The notes below the pieces were generated by a model, which worked only from the letters and a program-made list of their open reading frames with translations, was not told the DNA's origin and made no database searches. A stretch of 64,000 nucleotides of DNA from Stenotrophomonas sp. 169 (GTDB lineage Bacteria; Pseudomonadota; Gammaproteobacteria; Xanthomonadales; Xanthomonadaceae): contig NZ_CP061204.1 in NCBI RefSeq assembly GCF_014621775.1, positions 764,501 through 828,500 of the forward strand, read 5' to 3'. Below are positions 27,519 to 40,409 of the stretch, in pieces; position 1 is the first letter of the stretch, and each line of letters starts with the position of its first letter. Both the position numbers and the translations under genes were made by a program.

Positions 27519-29609
27519 ATGAGCACCCGCCGCCCGGTCAAGAATCTGCACGCCGAGGCCGAGCAGTTCCGCCGTCGCGCGGTGCTCGGTTTCCTGGCCG
27601 TGGTGCTGTGCCTGGGCGGGCTGGGCGCGTGGTATTTCAAGCTGCAGGTGCTGGACCACGAGATCTACACCACGCGCTCGGATGCCAATCGCATCAAGCC
27701 CCGTCCGGTGGTGCCCGGTCGCGGCATGATCTACGACCGCAACGGCCGCCTGCTGGCCGAGAACGTGCCGGCCTTCCGTCTGGACGTCACCCCGGACAAG
27801 GTCAAGGACATGGACGCCACCCTGGCCGGGCTGGCGAAAATCTTCCCGCTGAGCGAGGAGGAAATCGAGGCCTTCAACCGTTCGCGCAGGGCGCGTCGCA
27901 GCTTCCTGCCGGTGACCCTGAAGCTGCGCGTCAGCGAAGAAGAAATGGCGCGCTTCGCGGTGGACCGCTGGCGCTTCCCCGGGGTCGAGCTGGAGCCCTA
28001 CCTGACCCGCCGCTATCCCTTTGGCGACCTGTTCGCGCATGTGATCGGCTATGTGGGGCGGGTGGATGACAAAGACCTGGAAATGCTCGGCGAGGGCAAT
28101 GCCGCGCTGACCCATATCGGCAAGTCCGGGCTGGAGCGTTATTACGAACAGCAGCTGCGCGGCAAGGTCGGCTACGAACAGGTGGAAACCAATGTGCAGG
28201 GGCGGGCGATCCGTACGGTCGGCCGCGTGGCCGCCCAGTCGGGCACCGACCTGCGGCTGTCCATCGATGCCGACCTGCAGCGGGCCATGGTGGCTGCCTT
28301 CGGCGTGCAGGAAGGCGCGGCGGTGGCGATGGACCCGCGTACCGGCGAAGTGCTGGCGATGGTCAGCCTGCCTTCGTATGACGCCAATCTGTTCGTCAAC
28401 GGGATATCGCACGCCGACTTCCGCGCGCTCAACGACAACCCCTCACGCCCGCAGTTCAACCGGCTGGTGCTGGGCGGTGTGGCACCGGGCTCCACGCTGA
28501 AGCCGTTGATCGCACTGGCCGGGCTGGATGCCGGCGTGCGCCGGCCGGAAGACAAAGTGCTGTCGACCGGCATGTTCTACCTGCCCGGCACCAGTCGCGG
28601 CTGGGGCGACGCCAACCGCGGTGGCCATGGCTGGACCGATCTGCGCAAGTCCATCGCACAGTCGGTCAACACGTACTACTACCGCTTGGCGCTGGACCTC
28701 GGTATCGAGCGCTTCGACCACTACATGGGCTATTACGGCTTCGGGGCACCGACCGGCATCGACCTGACCGGCGAGATCGGGGGCATCCTGCCGTCGCCGG
28801 CGTACAAGATGAAATCGCGCAAAGAGCGCTGGTACCCCGGCGACACGGTGAACGTCAGCATCGGCCAGGGCGACTGGAAGGTGACGCCGCTGCAACTGGC
28901 GCACGGGGTAAGCGGCATCGCCAGCGGCCAGCTGCGCACGCCGCACCTGGTGATGCAGCAGCGCGATGGATTCGATAGTGACTGGACCATCACGCCGCCC
29001 AGCGAAACCAAACCGATCAGCCCGAATCCGAACAACGTGCAGGCCGTGCGCGAAGGCATGATGGCCACCATGCAGCCGGGTGGCAGTGGCGCGCGCATGG
29101 CGGCCGGCGCGTCGTATGTGATGGCGGGCAAGACCGGCACCGCGCAGGTGATCAGCCGCAAGGGCACCGCCGCCGTGGATCCGCGCAGCCTGCCACTGCA
29201 CCTGCGCCACCGCTCCTTGTTCGTCGGCTTCGCGCCGGCCGACAATCCGGTGATCGCCATCGCCGTGGCGGTGGAGGGCGGCGGCTACGGCGGCTCGGCG
29301 GCGGCCCCGATCGCGCGCAAGGTCTTTGATGCGTGGCTGCTGGGCAAGATGCCGGAGGGCGTGCTGCCGCTGGATGTAGAGCGTGGCAGCGTGGCATTCG
29401 GCGGCACCGTGTTCGATAACGAAGACAACGCCGCGCGCGCGAACGGAGAAGCCGCAGCGCTGGCGGCCGGTGATTTGCCGGTGCAGGTCGGTCTGCCGTC
29501 CCCGCAGGCAGTGCCCGCCGAGCATGGCGCGGCGCTACCGACTGAACCCGCCACCCCGGTAGCGCCGAGCCATGCTCGGCGGATCCCCCCCTCGGAGCCC
29601 GCCCGATGA
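27519..29609 (+). CDS. mrdA: Penicillin-binding protein 2 (MrdA), elongasome transpeptidase
   Basis: Class B PBP that crosslinks lateral-wall peptidoglycan. ATG 27519 gives 696 residues; the frame is open to 27303, but that part overlaps mreD. A short cytoplasmic tail and one membrane helix (about 21-38) precede the dimerisation domain (GRGMIYDRNGRLLAENVPAF) and the transpeptidase domain. The active serine is Ser325 in STLK, then SVN in AQSVNTYYY and KTGTAQVIS. E. coli PBP2 has 633 residues. The surplus here is a C-terminal tail that ends in VAPSHARRIPPSEPAR, read from SMAG sequence. It overlaps rodA by 4 nt. Confidence 0.96.
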   Translation: MSTRRPVKNLHAEAEQFRRRAVLGFLAVVLCLGGLGAWYFKLQVLDHEIYTTRSDANRIKPRPVVPGRGMIYDRNGRLLAENVPAFRLDVTPDKVKDMDATLAGLAKIFPLSEEEIEAFNRSRRARRSFLPVTLKLRVSEEEMARFAVDRWRFPGVELEPYLTRRYPFGDLFAHVIGYVGRVDDKDLEMLGEGNAALTHIGKSGLERYYEQQLRGKVGYEQVETNVQGRAIRTVGRVAAQSGTDLRLSIDADLQRAMVAAFGVQEGAAVAMDPRTGEVLAMVSLPSYDANLFVNGISHADFRALNDNPSRPQFNRLVLGGVAPGSTLKPLIALAGLDAGVRRPEDKVLSTGMFYLPGTSRGWGDANRGGHGWTDLRKSIAQSVNTYYYRLALDLGIERFDHYMGYYGFGAPTGIDLTGEIGGILPSPAYKMKSRKERWYPGDTVNVSIGQGDWKVTPLQLAHGVSGIASGQLRTPHLVMQQRDGFDSDWTITPPSETKPISPNPNNVQAVREGMMATMQPGGSGARMAAGASYVMAGKTGTAQVISRKGTAAVDPRSLPLHLRHRSLFVGFAPADNPVIAIAVAVEGGGYGGSAAAPIARKVFDAWLLGKMPEGVLPLDVERGSVAFGGTVFDNEDNAARANGEAAALAAGDLPVQVGLPSPQAVPAEHGAALPTEPATPVAPSHARRIPPSEPAR
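29517..29580. repeat. Two SMAG elements inside the mrdA coding region
   Basis: A slightly degenerate minus copy 29517-29538 and a plus copy 29559-29580, both translated in the PBP2 tail. Confidence 0.85.
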
Positions 29610-30718
29610 AGGATTTCCTGCGCTGGGCCGGCGACATGCTGGTGCGCTTCTTCAGCACGCTGGACTGGATGCTGTGTGCCGCCTTGGGCGCCCTGATGCT
29701 GATCGGTCTCGCCACGCTGAAAAGCGCGGGTGGCGACGGGCTGGTCTTCGCCCAGGGCGCACGCTTCGCCGTTGGCCTGGCGGCCATGTGGGGCATATCA
29801 CGCGTGCCGATACTGCGCATCCGCTCGGTGACGCCGATGATCTACGCCATTTCGATGATCCCGCTGCTGGCGGTGTTCGCGATCGGTACCGGCAAGTACG
29901 GCCGGCAATGGCTGGACCTCAAGCTCTTCTACCTTCAGCCGGCCGAACTGCTGAAGGTCAGCCTGCCGATGATGGTGGCCTGGTACCTGCACCGCATGCC
30001 GTTGCCGCCCCGTTTCACGACGGTGCTGGTCAGCCTGCTGATCATCGGCGCCCCGACGGCGGCGGTGATGCTGCAGCCGGACTTCGGCACCGCCGTGCTG
30101 ATCGCCGCCAGCGGCGTGTTCGTGCTGCTGCTGGCCGGCCTGCCGTGGTGGTGGGTCGGGCTGGGCGTGGGCGGCATCGCCGCGGTCGCACCGGTCGCCT
30201 GGTTCTGGCTGCTGATGCCGTACCAGAAGGACCGCATCATGATGTTCCTCGACCCTGAGATGGATGCGCTGGGCGCGGGCTGGAACATCATCCAGTCGAA
30301 GATCGCCATTGGATCGGGCGGCCTGGAGGGCAAGGGCTGGGGCCAGGGCTCGCAGTCGCACCTGAACTTCATCCCGGAGCAGACGACGGACTTCGCATTT
30401 TCGGTGCTGAGCGAAGAGTTCGGCTGGATGGGCGTCGCGCTGGTGCTGGCGCTGTATCTGGTGGTGATCGGGCGTTGCCTGTGGATCGCCGGGCAGTCGC
30501 GGGATTCGTACTCGCGCCTGCTGGCCGGCGCCACCGGCCTGGCCTTCTTCGTCTACGTGCTGGTCAACGGCGGCATGATTTCCGGCCTGTTGCCCGTGGT
30601 GGGCGTCCCGATGCCCCTGATCAGCTACGGCGGCACCTCGGCGGTATCCCTGCTGGCAGGCTTCGGTCTGGTGATGGCCGTACGCAGCCACAACCCGGTC
30701 CACGGCGGCTACCGGTAG
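29606..30718 (+). CDS. rodA: RodA, SEDS peptidoglycan glycosyltransferase
   Basis: Polytopic inner-membrane glycan polymerase partnered with PBP2. 370 residues with about ten membrane helices. SEDS signatures: LQPAELLKVSLPM, QPDFGTAVLI, NFIPEQTTDFAFSVLSEEFGW with the catalytic-region aspartate, and GVPMPLISYGGTS. The ATGA start overlaps mrdA. The TAG stop belongs to the GTAG of a SMAG element. It is the last gene of the mre cluster. Confidence 0.97.
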   Translation: MKDFLRWAGDMLVRFFSTLDWMLCAALGALMLIGLATLKSAGGDGLVFAQGARFAVGLAAMWGISRVPILRIRSVTPMIYAISMIPLLAVFAIGTGKYGRQWLDLKLFYLQPAELLKVSLPMMVAWYLHRMPLPPRFTTVLVSLLIIGAPTAAVMLQPDFGTAVLIAASGVFVLLLAGLPWWWVGLGVGGIAAVAPVAWFWLLMPYQKDRIMMFLDPEMDALGAGWNIIQSKIAIGSGGLEGKGWGQGSQSHLNFIPEQTTDFAFSVLSEEFGWMGVALVLALYLVVIGRCLWIAGQSRDSYSRLLAGATGLAFFVYVLVNGGMISGLLPVVGVPMPLISYGGTSAVSLLAGFGLVMAVRSHNPVHGGYR

Positions 30719-30868
30719 AGCCGACTTCAGTCGGCTTGCCTCACCACGCGCGTGAAGCGCAGCCGACTGAAGTCGGCTCTACCAGGCCGGGCGCGTGAAG
30801 TGCAGCCGACTGAAGTCGGCTCTACCAGGCCGAGCGCCTTAAGCGCAGCCGACTGAAGTCGGCTCTAC
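30715..30868. repeat. Four SMAG elements after rodA
   Basis: Copies at 30715-30736 (plus, providing the rodA stop) and 30761-30782, 30804-30825 and 30847-30868 (all minus). The three minus copies are spaced every 43 bp with related linkers (GAAGCGCAG / GAAGTGCAG / TTAAGCGCAG), so they look like a local tandem amplification. Confidence 0.88.
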
Positions 30869-30900
30869 CCCAGAAAGACGTCGTGAAGATTTCACACATC

Positions 30901-30922
30901 AAATGTGCTCTAGATCACACTT
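30901..30922. promoter_or_regulatory. CRP/Clp-type binding site
   Basis: TGTGCTCTAGATCACA at 30904-30919, flanked by AAA and CTT. It differs at one base from the CRP consensus TGTGA-N6-TCACA. Xanthomonads use Clp, a CRP homologue that responds to cyclic di-GMP, with a very similar site. It stands about 60-70 bp ahead of the candidate small RNA. Confidence 0.75.
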
Positions 30923-30976
30923 CTTAACGATTTTTTGATTTTGATCAATGGTTTTGTCGCAAACCCGCTGCACAAT

Positions 30977-31142
30977 GGCGGCCTGTCATGCAGGGCGCGT
31001 TCATCTACCGCCGACCTGCGGACAGGAGCAGCAAGACCGCACGTTAGCCACCTGCTCTGGGGAGATGCAGGCGGCCCAATCGCATGGTCCGGCAGGCCGG
31101 TTGCGCCCGTAGGGGGATGGGGGCGCAACCGGTTTGTTGTCA
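30977..31142 (+). ncRNA. Candidate structured small RNA with its own terminator
   Basis: No plausible protein. Three successive hairpins can be drawn. The first is CCTGTC/GACAGG with inner GCAGG/CCTGC (30982-31026). The second is GCCACCTGC/GCAGGCGGC with one mismatch and loop TCTGGGGAGAT (31047-31075). The third is a perfect 12-bp stem CCGGTTGCGCCC/GGGCGCAACCGG (31097-31132) followed by TTTGTTGT, a good Rho-independent terminator. A possible -10, CACAAT, lies at 30971-30976. The 5' end is estimated. It could instead be a leader of mltB with premature termination. Confidence 0.6.
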
Positions 31143-31165
31143 CTGCTTTTTTCACGCAGGATTTA

Positions 31166-31200: not shown

Positions 31201-31248
31201 CATGGTCTTAGGGGTTTTATTTCATCCATGACCTGCTAACCTGCGGCG

Positions 31249-32397
31249 ATGATCCGACGTACTCTGGCCTGCATGCTCACCCTCGGCCTGGTCGCTTGCG
31301 CGACTCAGCCGTCGAGTCCTCCATCGCCTTCGCAGGCCACCGTTGCGCCGCATAAACCGGCCAGCGGACACACCAAGGGACCGGCAGAAGCCGCGCCCGA
31401 GGCCGCTGCGGCTACCGCACCGCCGGTTGACCTGACGCCCGTCCCGTTCGACGTCGCGCGCGCCAATTTCATCCGCGATACCGCTGCCGCGCACAAACTT
31501 GATCCTGCCTATATCGCCAGCGTGCTCGACCAGGCGCAGGTGCGTCCGCCGATCATCGCGGCGATGTCGCGTCCGGCAGAACGGGTCAAGCCGTGGAACG
31601 AGTACCGGCCGATCTTCATCAGCCAGGCACGCATCGACGGCGGAAAAAAATTCCTGGCCGAACATCGGGATGAGCTGATGCGCGTGCAGCAGCGCACGGG
31701 CGTGCCGGCCGAGGTGATCGTGGCCATCATCGGCGTGGAAACCAGCTATGGCGGCAACGCCGGCAACCACCGGGTTCTGGATGCGCTCTACACACTGGCT
31801 TTCTATTACCCGCGCAGCGGCGATCCCGCCAAGCTCGAACGCGAGGTGCGGCGCGAACTGTTCTTCCGCGACGAATTGGCCAAGGCGTTCGTTCTCGCAC
31901 GTGATGAAAAGCTCGACATCACCACGCTGAAAGGCAGTTATGCCGGTGCCATGGGCATGGGCCAGTTCATGCCGTCCAGCTATCTGGATTACGCAGTGGA
32001 CGGCAACGGCGATGGTCGCCGTGACCTGTTCAACAGCTACGACGACGTGTTCTCGTCCATCGCCAATTACTTCGTCAAGAAGGGCGGCTGGGTGCGCGGC
32101 GGGCAGGTAGCGGTGCCGGCTACGCTGGCCACCGGCCGCGAAGAGTTCAATCCGACCGAGTGGAAGCCCACCTGGTCGCTGCAGGATCTGGCCGCGCGCG
32201 GTTATCAGCCGGTCGGCGCGGTGCAGCCGGGCGCGACCGCCACGCCGATCACGCTTGAAGGCAGCACCGGCAAGCAGTACTGGCTGGGCTTCCAGAACTA
32301 TTACGCCATCACCCGTTACAACATCTCCAAAATGTACGCGATGGCGGTATTCCAGCTGTCGCAGGCCATCGCAGGAAAGGAGTTGCCGCCGGCATGA
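31249..32397 (+). CDS. mltB: Membrane-bound lytic murein transglycosylase B
   Basis: Cleaves glycan strands to 1,6-anhydro ends in the periplasm. 382 residues. Lipobox GLVAC gives lipidated Cys17, then a Pro/Ala-rich linker to about 65. The GH103 catalytic domain has FIRDTAAAHKLDPAYIASVLDQAQVR, catalytic Glu164 in IIGVETSYGGNAGNHRVLDALYTLAF, and GAMGMGQFMPSSYLDYAVDGNGDG. It overlaps rlpA by 4 nt, forming a mltB-rlpA-dacC wall-remodelling group. Confidence 0.96.
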   Translation: MIRRTLACMLTLGLVACATQPSSPPSPSQATVAPHKPASGHTKGPAEAAPEAAAATAPPVDLTPVPFDVARANFIRDTAAAHKLDPAYIASVLDQAQVRPPIIAAMSRPAERVKPWNEYRPIFISQARIDGGKKFLAEHRDELMRVQQRTGVPAEVIVAIIGVETSYGGNAGNHRVLDALYTLAFYYPRSGDPAKLEREVRRELFFRDELAKAFVLARDEKLDITTLKGSYAGAMGMGQFMPSSYLDYAVDGNGDGRRDLFNSYDDVFSSIANYFVKKGGWVRGGQVAVPATLATGREEFNPTEWKPTWSLQDLAARGYQPVGAVQPGATATPITLEGSTGKQYWLGFQNYYAITRYNISKMYAMAVFQLSQAIAGKELPPA

Positions 32398-35350: not shown

Positions 35351-35521
35351 GGCTGGTTGCAACCGCACCAGCCGGGATTGGCATCCCGATAGAGTCGTTT
35401 GATGTAAAGGGCCCAGTGCATGCAAAGCATTGGGGAAAATGCACTGACTTCCGCGTCTGCGGCGGGCGGTGCGTGGGGGATCCCGGGATCCCGCCGGTCT
35501 GTTCTTGCCTTTACATCAACG
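35351..35521. other. Strongly structured non-coding element (possible RNA or MITE-like repeat)
   Basis: Successive inverted repeats: GGCTGGT/ACCAGCC (35351-35373), GGGAT/ATCCC (35374-35387), then a 126-bp unit closed by CGTTTGATGTAAAGG (35396-35410) and CCTTTACATCAACG (35508-35521). Inside that unit are AGTGCAT/ATGCACT (35415-35445), CCGC/GCGG (35451-35462) and the perfect 16-bp palindrome centred on CCCGGG at 35477-35492. It is not a SMAG. It ends 79 nt before the next gene. No target-site duplication was seen. Confidence 0.55.
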
Positions 35522-35600
35522 CTCACCGGTATGCCAACCCGCACCGTCCGCCACCTTGCACTCCGGCAGGTGGCCCGCACGCACTGCGAGGTATCCCTGC

Positions 35601-36263: not shown

Positions 36264-39200
36264 ATGAATGCTGTTTACAAATTGATCTTCAATGTTTCTA
36301 CCGGGACGTGGGCCGTGGCCTCCGAGCTGACCGCATCGCGCGGCAAGAAGAGCCGCACCCGCCTTGCCGCCGCCATGGCCGTCGCCCTGGTGATGCCGGC
36401 CGGCGCCGCGCTGGCTGCTGACTCGCCGACTGCGCTGCAGTGCGCGGTGAACGAAGCGGTCTCGGCCGACGGCCTGCGTTGCGAAGCAGCGTCTTCGATG
36501 ACAACGATGTCAGGCGCTATCGGCGTCAAGGCGGCGCTTACCGATGACTTTGTCAAGGTGAATGGGGCCGCTGCTGGCGCTAATCCCGCAACTGCGGCTG
36601 GTGGTGGAGCCGTCGCTATTGGCGATAGTGCGAAAGGCAACACCAGCTCGTCGGTCGCGATCGGCTACGGTGCGGTCACCGGTGTGGCTGGGGATCCAAC
36701 CAACACCTCCCAAATCGCGATCGGCGCCACTGCTTCGGCACTGGGCCTGTCCTCGGTCGCTATCGGCAGCGGTGCCGCGACGAATGCGCAATACGCCACC
36801 GCCTTCGGCCGCTTGTCCAACGCAACTGGCGTCGGTGCAGTCGCTTTGGGTAACACATCAAAGGCGCTGGCAGTGAACGCTGCGGCGCTCGGCAACGGCG
36901 CGAGAGTTGACGCCACGGGCACCCATTCCACGGCGCTGGGTGCAAACTCGTCGGCCACGGCCGTTTCCTCTGTGGCGCTGGGCGCAAGCTCGGTTGCTGA
37001 CCAGGAAAACACCATCTCTGTCGGCAGGACCGGGGTAGGCCTCCAGCGCCGGGTCGTCAACATGGCTGCCGGCACCGCCGCCACCGATGCCGTCAACGTC
37101 AGCCAGCTGACCCCGGTCATCGCCGGTCTCGGCGGTGGTGCGAAGATCGACGCCGCCGGCGTTGTCACCGGCCCGACCTACAACTTCGGCACGAACGGCA
37201 GCTACAACGACGTCGGCAGTGCGCTGGGCAATCTGGATGGGCGCGTCGCAGGCAACACGACCAACCTGGGTGATCTGACCACCCGCGTGGACGGCATCGC
37301 CGCCGGCGCAGGCTTGGTTACCCGTGATACCCCCACCGGCGATATCCACGTGGGCAATGGTGTCCTCGGTGGCGCCGTCAGCCTGCGTGATAGCAACGGC
37401 GATTCGCGCTTCCTGACCGGTGTCAAGGCTGGCATCGGCAACAACGATGCAGTCAACGTGGGCCAACTGAAGCCTGTCGTGGAAAGCCTGGGCGGCGGCG
37501 CGAAGATCGACCCGGCCTCGGGCATTGTCACCGGCCCGACCTACACCGTTGGCGGCAACACGGTGCACACCGTCGGCGACGCCCTCACCGACATTGATGG
37601 CCGCACCACGACCAATACGACCAATATTGCCGGCAACACGACCGCCATCGAAAACCTCACCAACGGCACAACCGGTCTGGTGCAGCAGGCTTCGAGCACT
37701 GCCGATCTGACCGTCGGCAAGGACACCGGCGGCACGGCGGTGGACTTCGCCGGCACAAACGGTGATCGCACCCTGAGCGGCGTCAAGGCCGGCACGGTGA
37801 ATGCCGCCAGCAACGAAGCCATCAACGGTTCGCAGCTGCACGGCACCGCCAAGAGCGTCGCTGACAGCCTGGGTGGCAATTCTGTCGTCAACCCCGACGG
37901 CACCATCACCAGCCCGGTCTACAACATCGGTGGCACTGACTACACCGGCGTGGGTGACGGGTTCAAGGCCGTGGATGCGCGCATGGACGGCCTGATCGGC
38001 GGCACCGAAGGTCTGGTGACCTACAACGATTCCACCGGCACGGTGAGCGTCGCTGCAGGCAAGGCCGGCGACACGGTCGACTTCAGCAACAATGCGACCG
38101 ATGCCCGCACGCTGACCGGCGTTGCCGCCGGCACGGTGAATGCCGCCAGCAAGGAAGCGATCAATGGGTCGCAGCTGTACGGCACCGCCACGAGCGTGGC
38201 CAATGGCCTGGGCGGCGGTTCGGCCGTCAATCCGGACGGCACCATCCAGGCGCCGACCTACAAGATTGGCGCTGGGGCCACTGAGTACAACAACGTCGGC
38301 GATGCCCTTACCGACATCGACGGGCGCGTCATCACCAACACCGATGACATTTCCGGCCTGAAGGATGGCCTGGCAGCTGGCACGGTGGGTCTGGTGCAGC
38401 AGGCGGGTCCTGGTGCGAATCTGACCGTGGGCAAGGACACCGACGGCGATGCCGTTGACTTCACCAACAAAGCTAGGGCCAGCCGCAAGCTGATCGGCGT
38501 TGCCGCCGGCGAAGTGAGCGCAACCAGCAACGAAGCGATCAATGGTTCGCAGCTGTACGGCACCGCCAAGAGCGTCGCTGACAGCCTGGGTGGCAATTCT
38601 GTCGTCAACCCCGACGGCACCATCACCAGCCCGGTCTACAACATCGGTGGCACTGACTACACCGGCGTGGGTGACGGGTTCAAGGCCGTGGATGCGCGCA
38701 TGGACGGCCTGATCGGCGGCACCGAAGGTCTGGTGACCTACAACGATTCCACCGGCACGGTGAGCGTCGCTGCAGGCAAGGCCGGCGACACGGTCAACGT
38801 CGCTGGCATGGCTGGCGATCGCAAGCTGAGCGGCGTGGACCGCGGCATGGCCGAGAACGATGCGGCCAACATCGCCCAGCTGAAGGATGTGACCGCTGGC
38901 CTGGGTGGCGGTGCAACCGTCAACCCGGACGGCACCATCACCGGCCCGACCTACAAGATTGGCGCTGCTGGCACTGAGTACAACAACGTCGGTGACGCCC
39001 TCACCAACATCGATGGCCGCACCACGACCAACGAAGGCAACATCACCCACATCAACACCCGTCTGGACGGGCTGGCCGATGGCACCGTGGGTCTGGTGCA
39101 GCAGGCCGGTGCGGATGCAGACCTGACCGTGGGCAAGGCCACCGGTGGTGCTGCCGTCAACTTCGCCGGCAGCAGCGGTGACCGCAAGCTGACCGGCGTG

Positions 39201-40409
39201 GCCGCTGGCGACCTGACCGACACCAGCACCGATGCGGTGAACGGTTCGCAGCTGAAGGCGACCAATGACCGTGTGGCCATCAACGAGAACGACATCACCA
39301 ATCTGGATGGTCGCGTTACCCTCAACGAAGGCGACATCACCAACCTCAACACCGTCGTGCAGGACCTGTCCAACGGCACCGCGGGCCTGGTGAAGCAGGA
39401 TTCGCTCACCGGCGATGTCAGCATCGCAGCGGCCACCGGCGGCACGGTGGTCAACGTGGGTGGCAGTGCAGGTGCTCGCCGTCTGGCCGGTGTGGCCAAC
39501 GGTGTGGCCGATGATGAAGCGGCCACCATTGCGCAGCTGAAGGCCTCCGGCCTGGTCGATCCGAACGATGGCCGCGCCCTGGGTGCGGTGGTCTACGACG
39601 ACATCAGCCTGGGTCGTGCCACCTTGGGCGGCACCGGCGGTACGGTGCTGGGCAATGTCGGCAATGGTCTGATCGGCGCCGGCAGCATGGAAGCCATCAA
39701 CGGTGGCCAGCTGTTCCAGATGAATGCCGATTGGGAATCGAAGTGGTCGGCACTGGATGGCCGCGTGGGCAGCATCGAACGTGGCGTAGGCGACGGTTCG
39801 ATCGGTGGTCCGGGCCAGGGTGCGGGCCCGGATCCGGTCCCGGGTGAGGGCATGATCGGTGCCGGTGACGGTGCAGGTTCGATCGTGATCGGCGACGGTA
39901 CCGCGGGTGGTGCAGGTGCAGCGGGCGGCGACGGCGCAGTCGCCATCGGCGGCGGTTCCTCGGCGGCTGGCAAGGACTCGGTGGCCATCGGCAGCGGCTC
40001 CATCGCTGACCGTGACCGCGAAGTGTCTGTCGGTGCCCCGGGTGCTGAGCGCGTCATCGGTAACGTGGCCGCTGGTACGCGTCCGACCGATGCGGTCAAC
40101 CTGAAGCAGATGGATGACCGCTTCGCTGCCGAGCGTGACTGGAGCAACAGCCGCTTCCAGGCCGTTGACAAGCGTATCGACCGCATGGGCGCCATCAGCG
40201 CTGCATACGCCGGTATGGCCATCAACACCGCAGGCCTGAACGGTGACAACCGCGTCGGTGCCGGTATCGGCTCGCAGAATGGCCGCAGTGCACTGGCCGT
40301 GGGTTACCAGCGCATCCTGGGCGAGAAGAAGAACGTCTCGGTCTCGCTGGGTGGTGCCTTCAGTGGCAGCGACCAGAGCGTGTCGGCCGGTGCCGGTTTC
40401 AGCTGGTAA
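36264..40409 (+). CDS. Trimeric autotransporter adhesin 1 (YadA-like)
   Basis: A 1381-residue surface adhesin (type Vc secretion). The N-terminus MNAVYKLIFNVSTGTWAVASELTA is the extended signal peptide region typical of large autotransporters; the signal continues to about residue 51. Head region about 100-270 has repeated AVALGNTSKAL / [20 protein letters not shown] motifs. A long stalk follows with repeated modules LTGVAAGTVNAASKEAINGSQLYGTA, VNPDGTI and YNIGGTDYTGVGD. The C-terminal 80 residues form the YadA anchor (MDDRFAAERDWSNSRFQAVDKRIDRMGAISAAYAGMA ... VSAGAGFSW). It contains a perfect 238-bp internal duplication. A strong terminator follows. Confidence 0.95.
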   Translation: MNAVYKLIFNVSTGTWAVASELTASRGKKSRTRLAAAMAVALVMPAGAALAADSPTALQCAVNEAVSADGLRCEAASSMTTMSGAIGVKAALTDDFVKVNGAAAGANPATAAGGGAVAIGDSAKGNTSSSVAIGYGAVTGVAGDPTNTSQIAIGATASALGLSSVAIGSGAATNAQYATAFGRLSNATGVGAVALGNTSKALAVNAAALGNGARVDATGTHSTALGANSSATAVSSVALGASSVADQENTISVGRTGVGLQRRVVNMAAGTAATDAVNVSQLTPVIAGLGGGAKIDAAGVVTGPTYNFGTNGSYNDVGSALGNLDGRVAGNTTNLGDLTTRVDGIAAGAGLVTRDTPTGDIHVGNGVLGGAVSLRDSNGDSRFLTGVKAGIGNNDAVNVGQLKPVVESLGGGAKIDPASGIVTGPTYTVGGNTVHTVGDALTDIDGRTTTNTTNIAGNTTAIENLTNGTTGLVQQASSTADLTVGKDTGGTAVDFAGTNGDRTLSGVKAGTVNAASNEAINGSQLHGTAKSVADSLGGNSVVNPDGTITSPVYNIGGTDYTGVGDGFKAVDARMDGLIGGTEGLVTYNDSTGTVSVAAGKAGDTVDFSNNATDARTLTGVAAGTVNAASKEAINGSQLYGTATSVANGLGGGSAVNPDGTIQAPTYKIGAGATEYNNVGDALTDIDGRVITNTDDISGLKDGLAAGTVGLVQQAGPGANLTVGKDTDGDAVDFTNKARASRKLIGVAAGEVSATSNEAINGSQLYGTAKSVADSLGGNSVVNPDGTITSPVYNIGGTDYTGVGDGFKAVDARMDGLIGGTEGLVTYNDSTGTVSVAAGKAGDTVNVAGMAGDRKLSGVDRGMAENDAANIAQLKDVTAGLGGGATVNPDGTITGPTYKIGAAGTEYNNVGDALTNIDGRTTTNEGNITHINTRLDGLADGTVGLVQQAGADADLTVGKATGGAAVNFAGSSGDRKLTGVAAGDLTDTSTDAVNGSQLKATNDRVAINENDITNLDGRVTLNEGDITNLNTVVQDLSNGTAGLVKQDSLTGDVSIAAATGGTVVNVGGSAGARRLAGVANGVADDEAATIAQLKASGLVDPNDGRALGAVVYDDISLGRATLGGTGGTVLGNVGNGLIGAGSMEAINGGQLFQMNADWESKWSALDGRVGSIERGVGDGSIGGPGQGAGPDPVPGEGMIGAGDGAGSIVIGDGTAGGAGAAGGDGAVAIGGGSSAAGKDSVAIGSGSIADRDREVSVGAPGAERVIGNVAAGTRPTDAVNLKQMDDRFAAERDWSNSRFQAVDKRIDRMGAISAAYAGMAINTAGLNGDNRVGAGIGSQNGRSALAVGYQRILGEKKNVSVSLGGAFSGSDQSVSAGAGFSW
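37841..38078 (+). repeat. Perfect 238-bp direct repeat, copy 1, inside adhesin 1
   Basis: Identical base for base to 38558-38795. The copies are 717 bp apart, an exact multiple of three. Confidence 0.95.
38558..38795 (+). repeat. Perfect 238-bp direct repeat, copy 2, inside adhesin 1
   Basis: Encodes the same stalk module (SLGGNSVVNPDGTITSPVYN through GLVTYNDSTGTVSVAAGKAG) as copy 1. Confidence 0.95.

Follow-up and report, generated by a model that had tools for sequence, protein, structure and literature searches.

What does the DNA between rodA and mltB encode in this Stenotrophomonas genome (a single contig of 4.16 Mb), what would switch it on, and on what would its product act? A sequence-only reading of the window (the whole stretch of 64,000 nt that was analyzed) had proposed a Clp-controlled small RNA. 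We examined the locus by folding, by searches against Rfam and by comparison with a genus sample of 91 genomes and with genomes outside the genus. The features to which we refer are as follows.

29606..30718, + strand: rodA, the upstream neighbor (TIGR02210, above cut-off)
30901..30922, + strand: CRP/Clp-like site AAATGTGCTCTAGATCACACTT, core 30904-30919, one mismatch to TGTGA-N6-TCACA; its center, 30911.5, would be at -71.5
30935..30948, + strand: perfect FNR/ANR-type box, TTGAT-TTTG-ATCAA; its center, 30941.5, would be at -41.5
30971..30976, + strand: -10-like hexamer CACAAT, exactly 22 nt past the FNR box
30983..31140, + strand: predicted small RNA, with +1 placed at about 30983 from the -10 spacing and the 3' end at about 31134-31140
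about 30982..31026, + strand: H1, the 5' hairpin, which begins at the predicted +1
about 31035..31089, + strand: H2, a long hairpin with apical loop TCTGGGGAGAT (GGGGAG at 31059-31064)
about 31095..31134, + strand: H3, the terminal hairpin, with loop GGGAUGGGG at 31114-31122 and a T-rich tail at 31133-31140
31249..32397, + strand: mltB, the downstream neighbor (TIGR02282, above cut-off)

We set +1 as the seventh base past the -10-like hexamer, and the positions -41.5 and -71.5 follow from that choice.

A predicted small RNA with three hairpins

The stretch 30901-31160 folds at -114.3 kcal/mol, compared with -92.5 kcal/mol in shuffles (z -4.20; 0 of 200 shuffles were as low). The three strong hairpins that had been proposed are present as H1, H2 and H3 over about 160 nt, and the proposal that no protein fits agrees with the many indels, not multiples of three, by which relatives differ. 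A match to a known RNA family was looked for in Rfam and did not occur: no family reached its gathering cut-off at the RNA locus. At E ≤10, the only overlaps with H3 were weak: mir-341 (+ strand) scored 17.6 bits against a cut-off of 90, and sX5 (- strand) scored 12.8 bits against a cut-off of 50. We rejected both as the identity of the RNA because their scores are far under the cut-offs. Matches nearby to STAXI (minus strand), to plant miRNAs and to other Rfam models were also set aside, as they fall on palindromic repeats at 30720-30870.

The complete intrinsic terminator that had been claimed was recovered in part. The H3 stem is followed by the T-rich TTTGTTGT, but there is no clean T-run, and a simple terminator scan (loop limit 3-8) listed nothing at H3. 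At least five T in 8 nt occur 3' of the H3 loop in 23 of 81 genomes, cleanly in deeper-branching ones (for instance G018, G075, G001 and G002); the other 58, including the S. maltophilia-like genomes, lack such a run and their 3' end is uncertain. A stand-alone sRNA gene with a predicted product of about 130-190 nt is the best explanation of these sequences.

Conservation and covariation within the genus

BLAST with the locus gave matches in 68 of the 91 genomes, the best in G023 and G011. We read the locus in 82 genomes and found the RNA in 81 of them (83 loci; G012 and G085 were read at two loci each, and the second loci are left out of genome counts). The exception, G087, has no RNA upstream of mltB, with the rest of that genome covered by BLAST alone. 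Nine genomes lie outside the 82, namely seven with a BLAST match (G007, G035, G044, G067, G073, G084 and G086) and two in which no mltB was found (G028 and G055).

Two loops are near-invariant while their stems change. The H2 apical loop, the proposed interaction site, has borne out this suggestion insofar as GGGGAG is kept in 80 of 81 genomes (GGGGAAG in G071), and the H3 loop GGGAUGGGG is likewise kept in 80 of 81 (GGGGUGGGG in G089). In deeper-branching species the pair flanking the H2 loop is swapped from T-A to A-T (G085) or to G-C (G052, G056 and G076).

Compensatory changes, which the sequence-only reading had named as a check, are abundant. For H3, we picked 30 of 83 cores that were <93% alike: 99.4% of cells in its 12 pairs are paired, 8 of the 12 pairs have double changes, and double-change cells number 51, compared with 12.4 in shuffles. 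For the whole RNA, 51 of 83 loci (49 distinct rows; deeper-branching species and some near-duplicates omitted) were aligned to a covariance model, R1, which biases the alignment towards the structure; here 97.4% of cells are paired, and double changes are seen in 28 of 49 pairs and amount to 205 cells versus 52 in shuffles. This signal vanishes when the partner column is slid by 1-3. Double changes occur in 10 of 15 pairs of H1 (helices 1-2 of the alignment) and in 15 of 22 pairs of H2 (helices 3-7). Folding without any model recovered H2 and H3 in 81 of 81 RNAs and H1 in 65, with GGGG within a hairpin in all 81, and the mean unpaired probability is predicted to be 0.96 for the H2 loop and 0.86 for the H3 loop. 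Conservation in the genus together with covariation thus strongly supports the sRNA gene that had been predicted.

Distribution outside Stenotrophomonas

The first covariance model, R1, was too tight, matching 28 of 395 family genomes, all Stenotrophomonas. A second model, R2, built on the loops and H3, matched 34 of the 34 Stenotrophomonas of the sample and gave five weak matches among the other 361 family genomes, under strict filters that are able to lose weak matches. We rejected these five: each is a simple hairpin or a terminator, and none has an FNR box. In about 1 kb 5' of mltB from 20 genomes of 13 other genera, neither a perfect FNR box nor such an RNA was present; these 20 were taken from 114 genomes outside Stenotrophomonas that had given an mltB match, and in 10 of them rodA was not found in the stretch. 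One genome, G119, has a degenerate TTGAC-N4-GTCAA adjoining a conserved element upstream of mltB.

We also scanned 84,980 species for an FNR box, 22 nt, CACAAT and GGGGAG, and obtained 45 matches. Forty-one are titled Stenotrophomonas, three more (L217, L234 and L247) are assigned to the genus, and one comes from a Burkholderiales MAG (L231). The last, the only one of the 45 that was read, was rejected: the downstream gene is ccoN-like and the RNA is absent. Within the genomes searched, the predicted RNA is therefore confined to Stenotrophomonas. Some record titles fit poorly, as Bacillus subtilis SK7B5 (L247), Xanthomonas chitinilytica (L217) and [Pseudomonas] hibiscicola (L234) are apparently the genomes G072, G012 and G017 of the genus.

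A predicted FNR-dependent promoter

The FNR box at 30935-30948 and the -10-like CACAAT had no place in the sequence-only reading. Perfect boxes are rare: there are five in the whole genome (4.16 Mb) and none in the reversed control. Besides the one at our locus, one lies between ompW and gapA (OmpW/GAPDH genes), one 5' of cydD and one between gene sets containing hemN and ccoG, where none of the directly adjoining frames that were tested matched a model; the fifth is inside what we read as a UvrD-like helicase gene. Genes such as ompW/gapA, cydD and hemN/ccoG are of the kind that FNR proteins control.

Across the genus, 77 of 81 RNA-bearing genomes have a perfect box; it is lost in G089 and has one mismatch in G060 and two each in G014 and G081. 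A hexamer stands exactly 22 nt past the box in all 80 genomes with a recognizable box (G089 and G087 left out), and over 82 loci it reads CACAAT in 75, GACAAT in three, CACACT in three and CAAAAT in one. The classical position of a class II activator is -41.5, which is where the perfect box of these 77 genomes would be centered.

The genome encodes an FNR-type protein with N-terminal cysteines and, in our reading of the motif, a recognition helix ETVSR; it scores with the FixK, FnrL and Fnr models, under their curated cut-offs. Its gene was found in 89 of 91 genomes and is missing from G014, which has a degenerate box, and from G087, which has no RNA upstream of mltB. This joint loss is suggestive of a link to FNR, but weak, because G081, whose sequence is close to that of G014, carries the FNR gene together with a box of similar degeneracy. 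FNR is also present in G089 and G060. We infer that FNR would bind the box and activate transcription, and an FNR-activated structured sRNA is a prediction in which we have high confidence. The Burkholderiales contig L231 has the same layout (FNR box, 22 nt, CACAAT) before its ccoN-like gene, as an independent example of the promoter layout.

Possible pairing with sX13

The G-rich loops suggest a partner. In Xanthomonas, sX13 is reported to repress mRNAs with GGGG motifs via C-rich loops, and its gene is reported to follow polA in Xanthomonas, Xylella, S. maltophilia and Pseudoxanthomonas (PMC3771888). In our genome sX13 (RF02232) is a separate gene elsewhere, and it was found in 89 of 91 genomes. 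It did not pass the cut-off in G016 even with lax filters (best 24.3 bits; an assembly of 100 contigs), where the RNA has both loops, and it was also not found in G028 (83% complete; RNA locus unread). The case of G016 speaks against sX13 as the sole partner. We aligned 63 copies of sX13, one of which (G079) is broken by N in the stretch cut out; loops 1 and 2 (CCCATCCCCT and CTCCCCA) occur in all 62 complete copies, whereas the length of loop 3 is variable. The Rfam consensus for the whole family conserves loops 1 and 2 as well, so they predate the Stenotrophomonas RNA.

Measured against the sX13 of the reference genome (G000) only, 80 of 81 RNAs show 8-9 nt of complementarity between the H3 loop and sX13 loop 1 (GGGAUGGG/CCCAUCCC); 69 of the 80 carry GGGGATGGG and 11 carry GGGATGGG. 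GGGGAG of H2 is complementary to CUCCCC of sX13 loop 2. The sX13 loops are predicted to be mostly unpaired, save the first two C of loop 1 CCCAUCCCC, which are in a stem. Both CCCATCCC and CTCCCC were present in only 0.7% of 20,000 dinucleotide shuffles of sX13, which had been picked as partner after the loops had been seen, and CTCCCC alone in 47%. When the RNA was shuffled instead, a complementary stretch of at least 9 nt appeared in 11% of 2,000 shuffles, which means that much of the complementarity is accounted for by composition. The loop complementarity is thus conserved and predicted to be exposed, and it lends moderate support to pairing. The near-constancy of the sX13 loops within the genus leaves no way to show that the two RNAs co-vary.

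With GGGGAG and GGGAUGGGG as its best conserved single-stranded parts, such a transcript would be well suited to act as a decoy for sX13. At low oxygen, FNR would transcribe the sRNA from a class II promoter, and in one large clade Clp would add a second input. GGGGAG of H2 and GGGAUGGGG of H3 would make loop-loop contacts with CUCCCC of sX13 loop 2 and with CCCAUCCCC of loop 1. The sRNA would thereby titrate sX13, and we infer that the direction of the effect would be relief of the mRNAs with GGGG motifs. The sX13 part of this explanation is plausible, and we put the whole reading, an FNR-activated sRNA that titrates sX13 at low oxygen, at close to an even chance. A fuller version, in which a genus-specific anti-sRNA gated by both FNR and Clp evolved with two hairpin loops that mirror the ancient, family-wide ones of sX13, so that oxygen and c-di-GMP would set the level of this global riboregulator via RNA-RNA kissing, is offered tentatively, with the balance leaning somewhat against it.

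In draft assemblies sX13 is often at contig ends (G021 and G087), and G021 has a second, cut-off copy; in some species sX13 may lie in or near a repeated stretch.

Alternative functions

The main rival is a decoy for RsmA, in which both loops present GGA to an RsmA dimer and low oxygen would release the RsmA targets. RNAs such as McaS and those of the RsmX/Y/Z type act as decoys of RsmA/CsrA via GGA loops. In 80 of 81 RNAs, each of the two conserved loops contains GGA, the core recognized by RsmA/CsrA; GGGAUG resembles RGGAUG, the core from CsrA SELEX, and the genome has an RsmA/CsrA gene. Csr/Rsm sponges carry multiple GGA, unlike our RNA, in which the total of 5.5 is only slightly above the 4.4 of shuffles (sd 1.9). 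Conservation also reaches well past GGA, over GGGGAG and GGGAUGGGG, and G089 has lost the GGA of H3 and kept the G-run. In Xanthomonas, a link between RsmA, c-di-GMP and Clp in biofilm control is reported (PMC3528676), and an RsmA-sequestering sRNA, RsmU, is known (PMC7694677). We consider a decoy for RsmA unlikely.

An ordinary trans-acting sRNA, with G-rich loops that pair with C-rich stretches of mRNAs and without any role for sX13, is improbable. The G-rich loops are predicted to be exposed, and control by FNR would parallel FnrS, which is reported to pair with its own targets (PMC8139620); however, a GC-rich genome contains many short C-rich complements, which leaves the specificity of such pairing uncertain.

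FNR could instead drive a longer mltB transcript with a structured 5' leader. In each of the 52 loci that were checked for mltB (30 + 22), the RNA lies 5' of this gene on the same strand, and 58 of 81 genomes have no T-run of five in eight after H3. Against this, deeper-branching species have a clean terminator after H3, and in the 22 loci where both genes are present, rodA and mltB are between 319 and 1323 nt apart. Directly 5' of mltB (about 31203-31231) there is also a conserved, promoter-like element, TTCATGG..TTA...TTCATC, with an AGGGG stretch in many Stenotrophomonas; this upstream element of mltB is kept in similar form in 11 of the 20 genomes from other genera, all of which lack the RNA at that place. 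We consider a leader very improbable.

Clp as a probable secondary input

The near-consensus CRP/Clp site proposed earlier is present, with 9 of 10 core positions of TGTGA-N6-TCACA, and Clp is encoded in the genome (NF008732, above cut-off). A Clp-like site with at most two mismatches lies 28-30 bp from the center of the FNR box in 61 of 80 genomes, compared with about 1.3 expected from shuffles (G087, which has no RNA, and G089, which has lost the box, are left out). At -69.5/-71.5, this predicted Clp-type operator, which is not universal, stands 5' of the promoter. The site is missing in 18 of 80 genomes, which are deeper-branching, and G037 is intermediate, with three mismatches.

The label of a Clp-controlled RNA therefore holds for a real, clade-wide site, but the input that is kept almost everywhere is the FNR box, perfect in 77 of 81 genomes, which makes Clp control at best half of the story. 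Because the Clp-like site is absent from the deeper branches, we take Clp as secondary, and binding by it looks like a clade-specific input beside FNR. That Clp is the main or sole regulator, as first suggested from the near-consensus site in the window and as its retention in 61 of 80 genomes might favor, is scarcely credible, since 18 of 80 RNA-bearing genomes lack the site and 16 of these have a perfect FNR box.

Relation to known RNAs

We found no description of this RNA in Rfam 15 or in the open-access literature, a scope with subscription journals mostly outside it, and no sponge of sX13 is described in the open-access literature as far as we found. The closest parallel in regulation is FnrS of Escherichia coli and its relatives, an sRNA under FNR with a CRP-family regulator as a second input; the second inputs reported for FnrS are ArcA (positive) and CRP (negative) (PMC8139620). 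In contrast to FnrS, our RNA has no Rfam match at cut-off (the FnrS model is not among the Rfam matches at the locus even at E ≤10), lies in another genomic place, has three hairpins with G-rich loops and was found only in Stenotrophomonas among the genomes searched. PaiI, PcrZ and NarS, oxygen- or nitrate-linked sRNAs, share the tie to low-oxygen regulation according to the same source (PMC8139620), and a comparison via Rfam found no relation in sequence or context.

With sX13 of the Xanthomonadaceae, the proposed partner, the RNA shares the same logic of G-run and C-run loops in mirrored form, with our RNA on the G-rich side. RsmU/sRX061 of Xanthomonas campestris and other Csr/Rsm decoys resemble it in having GGA in hairpin loops, but RsmU is reported as mRNA-derived with three to four GGA (PMC7694677), whereas our RNA has two conserved loops and its own predicted FNR promoter.

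If the preferred reading, titration of sX13, is true, low oxygen (and, in one clade, Clp and c-di-GMP) would be tied to a network of post-transcriptional control in a genus with an opportunistic pathogen among its members, and sX13 would gain a specific, testable antagonist.

Other elements in the window

An array of palindromic repeats (GCCGACTTCAGTCGGC) lies 3' of rodA at 30719-30870. On the minus strand it bears a weak resemblance to STAXI RNA (31.5 bits, cut-off 40.5), and the repeats are probably of the REP/SMAG type.

Downstream, a C4 antisense RNA is found at 35455-35558 on the + strand (RF01695, 47.8 bits, cut-off 45), flanked by a dacC-like gene and a large gene of adhesin-like type, both read from sequence. 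C4 RNAs are known from phage immunity regions. At 36264-40409 on the + strand, a large repetitive open frame (1381 aa) resembles a trimeric autotransporter adhesin.
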